This document shows positions 47,510 through 56,853 of a stretch of DNA of 64,000 nt, piece after piece. The DNA comes from Hysterium pulicare CBS 123377. Its lineage: Eukaryota > Ascomycota > Dothideomycetes > Hysteriales > Hysteriaceae. How positions within the stretch are numbered: position 1 is the stretch's first letter; the number at the start of each line of letters is the position of its first letter. A model generated the notes under the pieces. That model was not told the origin of the DNA. It worked only from the letters and a program-made list of their open reading frames with translations, and made no database searches. Location: NCBI GenBank assembly GCA_000467715.1, contig AJFK01001090.1, positions 248,001 through 312,000 of the forward strand. The letters run 5' to 3'. Position numbers and translations under genes: made by a program.

Positions 47510-49506
47510 TCACAACGTAACAGGATACTTCTTTCGAATCCACCCCCCATACCTAAAGAAAATCAACGGCACAGGCGTAACAGCCAAAAGCACAAACCCC
47601 AATAACGTATTCCCCCATCCAAACCCCAACTTCTCATACAGCCTCGGCCCGATCAACGGCAGAAAGCCCCCGAACAGGCATCTAAGGCAGACTAAAGCGG
47701 CGACGGCTGATGCAGAAGTTTGCAAGAAAGCGTCTACCATGTAGGTTTGGCAAGGGACGAAGATCCCGAGAAGGCCGAAACCGAAGGGGACGAAGGAGAG
47801 GCAGGGAATTATCCAGTGTGTGTGGTATTGTGCTGTCCAGCCGTAGATGAAGAGGGAGAGGGGCATGAAGACGGCGAAGTAGACGGTTGCTGCTAGGCGC
47901 ATTTCAGCTGGCGGGGAGGTCAGCATGGGCCATTGAAGTCGGGGACAGAAGGGCGTTGAGCTCTGTCTTGATTATTGAAGGAATGTTTCAACCGCTCACA
48001 GATGAGTGAAATCTTCAGGGTCCAATGCTGGTTTGAGATTGGGGGGGAATTGGAATTTGAAAGTAGGGATTCTGTTATCAAGGGAGAGAATAAACGTCTA
48101 ACTTACGCTCGAAGACTCCATCGTTCTTTTCTCTAAGTCGTACCACGGTGGCATCGTTAAATTTCATGATACACGCAAGAGCCATGAACATCCCGACCCC
48201 GAGTCCAAGGTATGCAAGACCAGTGTACTGAATAGAAAAGTGGTATGTCTCTTCAAAAACGATAGGTATGGTTGTGAAGAGTAAGTAGAGTGTACCGTAC
48301 ACTATAGAAACGTATAGACTGATCAGGAAGACGATGGGTGACCTTGAAAGGAACTTGAGCGGCCGTACGATACTCCTTGCGAGTACTTCACGAGGTGGGA
48401 GTGGCATCTCTAATTGTGAGTGGAGGTCATCGCGCTCGAGTTCTTTCTTTAGCCGTTTCGTTTTTTTCTCGAGGATGGTAGGGTGGTTAGATTCGTCCAT
48501 GAAAATCATCATCGTGATATTTAGCGGACCGCTGCCCATGAGGAGGATCCAGTAAGCCTGAGTATATTGATGAGTAAGGAAATAAAGAATAGGATCGACC
48601 GACGTACCCAGCGCCAGCCAAGATGCTCCGAGATAAATGCTCCAGCGATGGGGCCGACTATCCTGATGTGTTAAGTCTAATATCTAAAAGAAATGTTTTC
48701 ACAACGGCTTACTAATTGGAGCCAAAGAAGGGGTTCCGACGACGATAGTTGAAGCCGCTGCTCGTTCATGAACGGGAAACATGTCACCCACAACCGACGA
48801 CGTAATAGTCATGACAGCTGATCCAGCAATCCCAGCTAGCAGACGCATTATGATTAAACCTGGCATATTGGGAGCAAAACTACACCCTAGTATGAATGCG
48901 TTAAATAACACGGTTGAGATATTGACGACGGGCGCTCGACCGTACATTTCGGAAAGAGGAGCGAGGAAGAGAGGACCGAGTGCGTAGCCGAGGACATAGA
49001 TGGATATCATGAGAGTTCCGATGGTTTGAGAGGTAAGACCGTATTCTTCTAAAGTGAGTGATGTTCCGGGTGCGCAAAGCGAAGATGCCATGGGGCTGAA
49101 GGTACTCGAAGCACCCATGAAGAACATCAACAACCATTTTCGTCGAGGAGTCCAATTCCTCCAAAAGTTGTTAGTAGTGGTTCAGAAGTTAATGTTGGGT
49201 AGTTGCAACTCACTGGGGATTTTGAGGGTCATCATCGTCTTCCCACCCAACCATTCCGTTCGCTAAGTCCATATACACACCCGGTCGATCTCCTGTTGAT
49301 ATTACCACTTCTGGGCCGTTCGGGGATTGGAAAAATCCTGCATCTTTCTCTGCCATGGCTATCGTCTCTTTCTCGACATGTTCGGGCAGTGATTTTTGAG
49401 AATCACATTCAGTGATTCTTTCAGCCTCGTCCATTCCAATATGTGGATCATTCGAAGGGTCAAGACCAAGCGTCGGTCGATCGACACTCAAATTATGCGA
49501 CGGCAT
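47510..49506 (-). CDS. MFS multidrug transporter, DHA1 type
   Basis: Five exons (49506-49214, 49158-48713, 48657-48608, 48557-48107, 47907-47510) encode 545 residues. A hydrophilic N-terminus ends WEDDDDPQNPQNWTPRRKW, the classic start of fungal DHA1 drug/H+ antiporters. The motif LAPLSEMYGRAPV follows helix 2, and GSAVMTITSSVVGDMFPVHE, IGPIAGAFISEHLGWRWAYW and LFGGFLPLIGPRLYEKLGFG are all family-typical. There are about 12 membrane helices, and the central loop is highly charged. It is probably a plasma-membrane exporter. The 50-nt third exon and the 199-nt last intron are unusual, but phases close. Confidence 0.92.
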
Positions 49507-50516: not shown

Positions 50517-53702
<3,186 letters not shown>

Positions 53703-54437
53703 ATGGAATCCCAATATAATTTTGAGTGGTCACCCGAAGATGCCAGTCTTATGACAGGTGGGGACGACCCTACCACGGACCCCAGCATTTGCTTCTTTAG
53801 TAGCAGCCCTTCAGTAAGCATTACTATCGAAACGAAATGTGGATTGTCCTTATACTCGATAGCAGATTTTTTCCAACCTCTACATGTCACCGAGACAGAC
53901 TCAGCAAGCCTCTAACTATCCAAGACCAACAGACACGTCGGTCAGTTTCCAAATGTCATCAGCACCAATCGCTGGCAGCCCAGACGAGGGTACGCCCCCC
54001 TCAGTAGCCGCAGATGATGGAGCTACCCATTCACCGAAACGAGTGTGCATTACAAACGAGGTACGTAGATTAGGGTAACGTGGATTTCGACGCCGCACAA
54101 ACCTAGTCGATGCCGAAGGAAAGTCATTTCGCGTTACTAATTATGCGTCCTGCAGAAACAAAGAGCCCGAAATCGTCAATCACAGAAGGCTTTTCGAGAG
54201 CGCAAGGAAGCCCACATCAAAGATCTCGAGACCCAAATTGAAATCCTGACTAAGAGGGCCAAAGAGCTGGAGAGCGCAAACGCGGAACTGAAATCTGAAT
54301 GTGGAAGACTGAAAGCGTTAGTGAAGCTCTTGATGGGTGATCAGTCTGATGGGTCTGCAGAAGAGTCTGCAGATAAGGAATGCAAAAGAGCCACTAGGCT
54401 GAGGAATCTATTGAAGATATTGGATGAAGTGGAGTAA
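53703..54437 (+). CDS. bZIP transcription factor, Yap/AP-1-like
   Basis: Three exons (53703-53813, 53905-54060, 54156-54437) encode 182 residues. It begins MESQYNFEWSPEDASL and has a disordered Ser/Pro/Asp-rich middle. The basic region RARNRQSQKAFRERKEAHIK (residues 92-111) is followed by a leucine zipper through LETQIEILTKRAKELESANA and LKSECGRLKALVKLL. The NRxxQKAFRERK form is that of fungal Yap-type factors, many of which control oxidative-stress genes. No cysteine-rich redox domain is seen, so redox sensing like Yap1 is not indicated. It lies next to an oxidase and a catalase gene, but a regulatory link is inference. Confidence 0.85.
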
Positions 54438-54861: not shown

Positions 54862-56853
54862 ATGGATGCAGTACCAATGTATACTTTGGCGGAAGGTATG
54901 ACAAGGCACCCTCTACTTTCGCACAAACCACTCATGAAACTCTCAGGCCGCCCAGTTCCAGATCCAACAACCACTACTCAATTCGGCGGACAAGGCCTCA
55001 AAGGCCTCGCGCTCCTCCAAGACACCCAATTGATCGAAACGCTTGCCCACTTTAGTCGGGAACGCATACCGGAGAGGTCGGTGCCAAGCACACCCTACTA
55101 ATCTTAGAAGAAGCTGACGAAGGAGCACGTTACAGAGTCGTCCACGCGAGTGCGGTTGGCGCCTTCGGCGAATTTGAAGTAACGCACGACATATCCGACC
55201 TTACATCTGCGGCGTTCTTGAATGGAGTCGGGAAGAAATCCCAAGCTCTTCTTCGAGTTTCTACTGTAGGGCCTGAGAAAGGGGCGCCGGATACTGTGCG
55301 AGATGTGCGGGGCTGGGGTTTGAAGATTTATACCGAGGAGGGGAATCATGACTTCGTTTTCAATAGCATTGTAAGAAGCACACCACCATTGCGCTGGTTA
55401 TAGAGCGGCGCGGACCGATGTTGGGGGTTTTCTAGCCAGTCTTCTTCGTTCGCGATCCTATCAAATTTCCGTCTGTGAATCGGTCTCACTAGCGACATCC
55501 GAAGACACATCTTTTTGATAGCACGATGGCAAGTCTTTTTCAAATGGCAATTCACATATCGCGCTGACTTTTTCAACGCAGTTTTGGGAGTAAGTTACAT
55601 GAGCGAAGTCGCTAAGAATCCAGGTACTAATGAGATAAAGCTTCCACAATAACAATCAAGAAGGAATACACGCTTTAATGCATCTTTTCAGTGGCCGCGG
55701 TACTCCAGCGTCAGTTCGATGTATAAATGGTTATAGCAATCACACATACAAGCTCACTAAAGAAGTAAGAAGAAAGCTGGACACCAATATGTACTGTTCA
55801 TTCAAAGGCTGATCAGAAGCAGGACGGAACCTTCAAATACGTCAAATTCCAGTTCAAAACGGACCAAGGCATCAAGACCTACACTCAAGCAGAAGTCAAC
55901 AAGATCGGCGGCGAAAATCAAGACTACATTGGCGAAGATCTTTACCGATCCATTGAGAAAGGCGATTATCCTTCATGGACACTATATATACAAGTAATGG
56001 ACCCGGCTGATGCGGAAAACTATCGCTTCAACATCTTCGATATAACAAAAGTATGGCCGCACGCAGATTACCCACTACGCCCAGTCGGAAAGCTGACACT
56101 GAACGAAAACGTAAACTTCTCCAAACCTTCTTCCGCATTTTAGTATATTGACATCTCTCCCAGCCATCAAACTACTTCCGCGATATCGAACAAGCCGCCT
56201 TCTCCCCCTCAAACATGGTCCCAGGCATCGGCCCCTCTGCAGATCCGCGTAAGTTCTCCTTCCAACAACCCTTTTCACCCTTTCTATAACCACATCACAG
56301 TCCTCCAAGCCCGCATGTTCGCCTTTCCAGATGCAGCGCGCTACCGCCTCGTCGTAAACTACCAAACGCTCCCCCCAAACGCGGCTCACTCTCCCGTATA
56401 CTCTCCCTACCAACGCGACGGCTTCATGACCTTCACGTCAAACTACGGCGGCGATCCTAACTACGTCCGCTCATCTCTCCGTCCGGTAAACTTCTACAAC
56501 AAGTCGACGGGGAAAGGTAGACGTCTAAGCCAAGCACTAGCTCAGCACGAGAAATGGGTTGGTGAGATGACGGATTTCTTGAGTGAAGTTGAAGATATCG
56601 ATTTTGTGCAGTCGAGGATGCTGTGGGAGGTTTTTGGGAGGAGGAAAGGGGAGAGGGAGGAGTTTGTGGGAAATGTGGCCGGGCATTTGAGAGGAGCGGA
56701 GTTGGGGGTTCAGAAGGAGACTTTCAGTAAGTTGAAGTCATTGTTGGAGAGAGAGTTTGAACTAATGTTTGTGTAGAAATGTTCGAGAGGGTTGATGAGG
56801 AGTTGGGGAGGAGGATTAAGGAGGCGACTATTAAAGCTGTGGTTGAGAACTAA
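54862..56853 (+). pseudogene. Haem catalase with an in-frame stop and altered haem ligand
   Basis: Nine exons (54862-55076, 55136-55370, 55436-55528, 55582-55589, 55641-55764, 55823-56110, 56164-56248, 56301-56726, 56777-56853) total 517 codons, the length of a small-subunit catalase. His75 (RVVHA), Asn148 (FVFNS), FFVRDPIKFP, NNNQEGIHALMHLF, DYPSWTLYIQVMDPADAENY and the block from KVWPHADYPLRP onward match the family. Two defects stand out. Codon 169 is TAG (55490-55492) where catalases have Lys in SHKRHP. Codon 358, the proximal haem-ligand Tyr of RMFxYPDAARYR, is Phe (TTT at 56324). Exon 4 is 8 nt and follows a GC-AG intron. Everything else is open, so decay is recent or the TAG is a sequence error. 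Confidence 0.85.

Follow-up and report, generated by a model that had tools for sequence, protein, structure and literature searches.

In the 64,000-nucleotide stretch of Hysterium pulicare DNA analysed here (the window), a catalase gene on the plus strand (54862-56853) carries an in-frame stop codon and has phenylalanine (Phe) at the place of the tyrosine (Tyr) that binds the haem iron. The question raised by this locus is whether the gene is in decay, has been misread, or encodes an altered haem protein that is made when the stop is overcome. Most probably the gene, a fungal catalase of the small-subunit type (clade 3), became a pseudogene recently, a disabling lesion being found within an otherwise recognisable gene.

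Structure of the catalase gene

The gene was modelled by hand as ten exons (54862-54895, 54947-55076, 55136-55370, 55436-55528, 55582-55589, 55641-55764, 55823-56110, 56164-56248, 56301-56726, and 56777-56853) comprising 499 codons and a stop. A spliced alignment reproduces these exon edges, though as a check of consistency only, its query being the translation of the hand model itself. The Pfam Catalase profile (PF00199) matches the model over positions 1-381 of 383 (E = 5.9e-168, with X at the stop), followed by the C-terminal Catalase-rel domain (PF06628; 4e-10). The full-length domain and the size of about 500 amino acids place the gene by descent among the small-subunit (clade 3) haem catalases, in agreement with the original prediction of a full small-subunit catalase between these ends. 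That prediction counted nine exons, as it overlooked an 8-nt exon (55582-55589), which has a GC-AG intron before it and a GT-AG intron after it and holds part of the FWD motif. When introns 4 and 5 are merged and this exon is dropped, a stop codon follows a few codons on. All nine introns measure 50-65 nt, eight with GT-AG borders and one with GC-AG (55529-55581). Splice damage was considered at the 8-nt exon and at two unusual donors (GC at 55529 and GTCGGT at 55077) and was rejected, as frame and motif are recovered with these sites. Apart from the TAG, the frames and splice sites of the gene are usable.

The closest solved structures are PDB 6rjn, 2xq1, 6rjr, and 1a4e. The window gene has the order of its domains, its size, the distal His and Asn, and the proximal Arg in common with these fungal small-subunit catalases and with C464, a paralogue in the same genome, but differs from them in its early stop, Phe for Tyr, Val for Gly, and a Ser-Ala-Val run. 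In a tree of 71 rows, the window catalase groups with the fungal rows (three yeast rows and C464) with support of 100/99. Its end branch is the longest, at 1.22 against 0.83 for C464, and the program flags such rows as unsurely placed. The length of this branch may reflect missing orthologues.

Residues lost and retained

Residues were compared in an alignment of 66 prokaryotic catalases of both small- and large-subunit type (67 loci, one duplicate removed) and the paralogue C464. The TAG at codon 152 (55490-55492, plus strand) replaces a Lys present in 67/67 aligned catalases, and codon 341 (TTT, 56324-56326, plus strand) encodes Phe at the haem-iron position, where all 67 have Tyr. Both substitutions had been predicted, as had the retention of the distal His and Asn, with which the alignment positions agree. 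The residue numbers then given (75, 148, 169, and 358) are those of bovine catalase. Of the features of a working haem catalase, the distal pair is in place and the proximal Arg is retained; the proximal Tyr ligand and an open reading frame are missing. PMC7712995 describes the Tyr and the Arg as invariant among all functional members and counts two adjacent Phe of the channel among the conserved residues.

Three further places depart from the alignment. Directly past the distal His, within the sequence HASAVGAFG, codons 60-62 (55149-55157, plus strand) read Ser-Ala-Val; at the first two of these changed places, 52/53 nearer catalases have K and 52/53 have G. The distal Asn is followed by Ser, where all 67 aligned catalases have Asn, and nine residues past the codon-341 Phe stands Val, where all 67 have Gly. 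The Ser-Ala-Val run, which needs several changes within nine bases, may predate the stop. Some of the changes at invariant sites may be usual for the fungal subfamily; the comparison rows are prokaryotic apart from C464.

Catalases elsewhere in the genome

The genome, a 37.2-Mb draft in 596 contigs, contains at least six catalase-family loci including the window gene, and the other five (C464, C145, C589, C504, and C529, the last by eye) all have the Tyr ligand. C464 is an intact paralogue with an open frame of 590 amino acids. The aligned core of C145 is without stop or frameshift, C589 has one stop close to a poorly aligned end, and C529 is a small, catalase-like locus. A relic at C504 (L010, G000:C504:57500-61500) is heavily broken, with six stops and five frameshifts relative to C464, and has kept its Tyr ligand.

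Phe forms were also sought directly. A pattern scan of a wider collection of genome contigs for a Phe ligand gave 44 stretches, none of them a catalase in tblastn with two catalases; the scan is a weak one, as it lacks a Tyr control and covers some codon wordings only, such that it would overlook the motif of the window gene itself. A scan of viral contigs gave no match. Among the open-licence PMC papers listed in literature searches, no title or abstract opening mentions Phe as the ligand in a catalase.

Extent and age of the probable decay

The two lesions had been taken to argue for decay of function. Decay remains the best reading, but it is not broad. In a leave-one-out count of departures from invariant columns, the window catalase departs at 4/46, the stop being one of these, against 3/49 in the intact C464 and 3/49 in one bacterial catalase; among the remaining rows, one departs at two columns, seven at one, and 57 at none. 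Broad decay of the gene was rejected on this count, and the window catalase is distinguished more by which sites it has lost than by how many.

The age of the lesion was bounded from the 3.4% of random substitutions in the catalase coding sequence that would be nonsense, together with 36 splice-site bases, the start and stop codons, and an assumed 0.05-0.15 indels per substitution. At these assumed rates, a single nonsense lesion in a gene free of frameshifts translates into 5.5-9.9 neutral substitutions since the release from constraint; the upper limit (one-sided, 95%) is 26-47, or 1.7-3.1% of the coding sequence. The expected number of missense hits in 45 invariant codons is 2.2 at 34 neutral substitutions and 0.45 at 7. 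A gene released from constraint only recently could thus carry Phe and Val at invariant sites, more readily so close to the upper limit. Since a few dozen neutral substitutions can yield the Phe, its presence at the ligand position needs no new function, and the earlier suggestion of a neofunctionalised haem protein is not supported.

Repeat-induced point mutation (RIP) was rejected as well. The RIP indices of the catalase (TpA/ApT 0.82, second index 1.07) are shifted slightly toward RIP relative to the window (0.70 and 1.22) and fall short of the thresholds of 0.89 and 1.03.

A broken formate-oxidase-like neighbour

A formate-oxidase-like gene (50517-51928, minus strand, outer ends placed by eye) lies 2.9 kb upstream of the catalase on the opposite strand. 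It matches the formate oxidase PDB 3q9t at 62% identity (167/269 residues, E = 5.2e-104), but lacks residues 109-314 of that protein. The part matching up to residue 108 runs directly in frame into the part that matches from residue 315 onward, with a seam near 51500, and 206 residues are gone. Both the N- and C-terminal parts are present, in what is not a complete GMC protein. None of at least 33 GMC_oxred_N matches lies within 69 kb. A search of the organism's own genome returned at least five other matches, all partial and at no more than 41% identity, and no second formate-oxidase-like gene is among the matches listed.

Hydrogen peroxide is a product of formate oxidase (PMC11236828). We infer that the oxidase and catalase were once functional partners, and that the catalase was no longer needed after the oxidase had been lost. 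Among the open-licence PMC papers listed in literature searches, no title or abstract opening mentions a formate oxidase-catalase gene pair. Between the two genes lies a small bZIP gene (53884-54437, plus strand, exon edges by eye; bZIP_1 E = 4.5e-10 on 54141-54434), with a basic region that looks AP-1/Yap-like.

Other neighbours were checked for damage in chosen frames rather than by systematic survey. The Dsc3, histidine phosphatase, Rxt3, and Fe-S_biosyn frames and, by eye, the major facilitator gene show no evident damage; nor does CLN3, which in the one frame tested matches to profile position 236 of 395. A possible break near 48700 in the major facilitator gene (47.5-49.5 kb, minus strand) was rejected, as an intron, seen by eye, explains it.

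The broken oxidase also bears on whether the lesions are real. A sequencing or assembly error in a catalase that is intact in the organism would fit a draft of 596 contigs and a gene with one nonsense codon only. However, the Phe, the Val, and the 206-residue gap in the oxidase would then represent several separate errors inside 6 kb, and this explanation is improbable. The original prediction set the two catalase lesions against a single base-call error. The conclusion stands, as the broken neighbour argues for real decay, although the Phe does not have to represent a functional step of its own.

Possible editing of the stop codon

A less probable alternative still is that the UAG is corrected by A-to-I editing, which would read the stop as Trp and give, on demand, a full-length protein whose haem pocket has Phe. 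Such editing is known from sexual stages of some filamentous ascomycetes. UAG to UGG editing is documented in several ascomycetes (PMC7306014, PMC11087585, PMC11169179, and PMC11156358). UAG is a favoured target, with G or A preferred at +1 and +3 (PMC11169179 and PMC11156358), and editing of CHE1 of Fusarium graminearum is described as raised by H2O2 (PMC11169179). The catalase TAG has G at both positions, its A falls inside a hairpin loop at four of five fold sizes, and the remainder of the gene is intact. The editing activator Ame1 is assigned to the DUF726 family (PMC11087585), and genome G000 has three DUF726 loci (C107:155890-156927, C366:46602-47748, and C433:124658-125771).

Such features are, however, common among background TAGs as well. 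At half-windows of 10, 15, 20, and 30, the sizes that the background covers (none was made for 50), 375, 399, 362, and 242 of 800 sampled background TAGs lie within a hairpin loop. G or A occurs at +3 in 362/720, and the fold z-scores at the catalase TAG range from -0.33 to 0.38. The context of the catalase TAG fits editing no better than that of background TAGs. In addition, Trp would replace a Lys found in 67/67 catalases, and the Eurotiomycete and the Leotiomycete examined for editing showed none (PMC11156358). The codon-341 Phe (TTT) has no A and hence is beyond the reach of A-to-I editing.

Possible splicing around the stop codon

It is just as doubtful that the TAG is taken out by an alternative intron, the product being a functional but diverged protein of the catalase fold whose haem pocket has Phe. 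The suggested splicing around the stop is feasible on paper: 57 introns of 40-400 nt would remove the TAG in frame, 13 of them with a better donor. Both haem faces are altered (Ser-Ala-Val and Phe). Yet at least 45 nt would be lost whichever intron is chosen. Splicing from the regular donor, 55371, to the AG inside the TAG costs 57 nt and skipping of exon 4 costs 93 nt, and both translated products lose VFFVRDP...FP. An intron at 55475-55581 shares the regular acceptor and keeps this strand at the cost of the 18 codons around the stop, but its GTGAAT donor is weak.

It is highly unlikely that the gene is retained for conditional use, with the UAG overcome by editing or an alternative intron in fruiting bodies, for example, or during oxidative stress, to give a catalase-fold haem protein that lacks the Tyr ligand and serves as a sensor or another haem enzyme instead of a catalase.

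Proposed course of inactivation

Under the pseudogene reading, the UAG would end translation after 151 residues, ahead of most of the haem pocket, and the locus would then evolve under little constraint. The Phe at the iron ligand and the Val at the invariant Gly would most simply be substitutions from this relaxed phase. Other catalase genes (C464, which is intact, C145, and C589) would make the loss tolerable. The likely, though unproved, trigger would be loss of the adjacent formate oxidase, whose peroxide the catalase may have removed. We infer the absence of a catalase product, the order of these events, and the link between oxidase and catalase. In favour of inactivation are the in-frame TAG, the loss of a Tyr found in 67/67, the longest end branch, the broken oxidase neighbour, and the redundant catalases; against it are the single disabling lesion, the usable state of all splice sites, and a number of departures barely above that of the intact C464.

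Comparison with known systems

Catalase gene loss has been proposed in Chaetomium thermophilum var. dissitum (PMC7712995, section 3.4). There, too, a redundant catalase gene was lost with others remaining, but through deletions in a large-subunit gene, whereas the window gene is of the small-subunit type and carries a nonsense codon. PUK1, AMD1, and CHE1 of Fusarium graminearum, whose premature stops are corrected by A-to-I editing, resemble the window gene in having a single UAG in an otherwise intact gene; in contrast to them, the sequence context of the window TAG is at background level. The catalase fold is also common to the window gene and EasC (PDB 9jdb), as well as coral allene oxide synthase, which keeps the Tyr ligand where the window gene has Phe (PMC5617202).

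Implications

To the original prediction, this analysis adds the exon structure, the leave-one-out count, a bound on age, the broken oxidase neighbour, and the editing and splicing alternatives with their controls. Should editing or splicing turn out to bypass the stop, this would be a conditionally controlled redox-enzyme gene whose haem pocket has no counterpart among the catalases compared. As a pseudogene, it would be ordinary for fungi, a redundant catalase recently lost. The neighbourhood points to a possible co-decay, in which a peroxide-making oxidase and a peroxide-removing catalase are broken inside one 6-kb stretch. If relatives hold both genes intact side by side, a small formate-oxidation module would have been lost as a unit.
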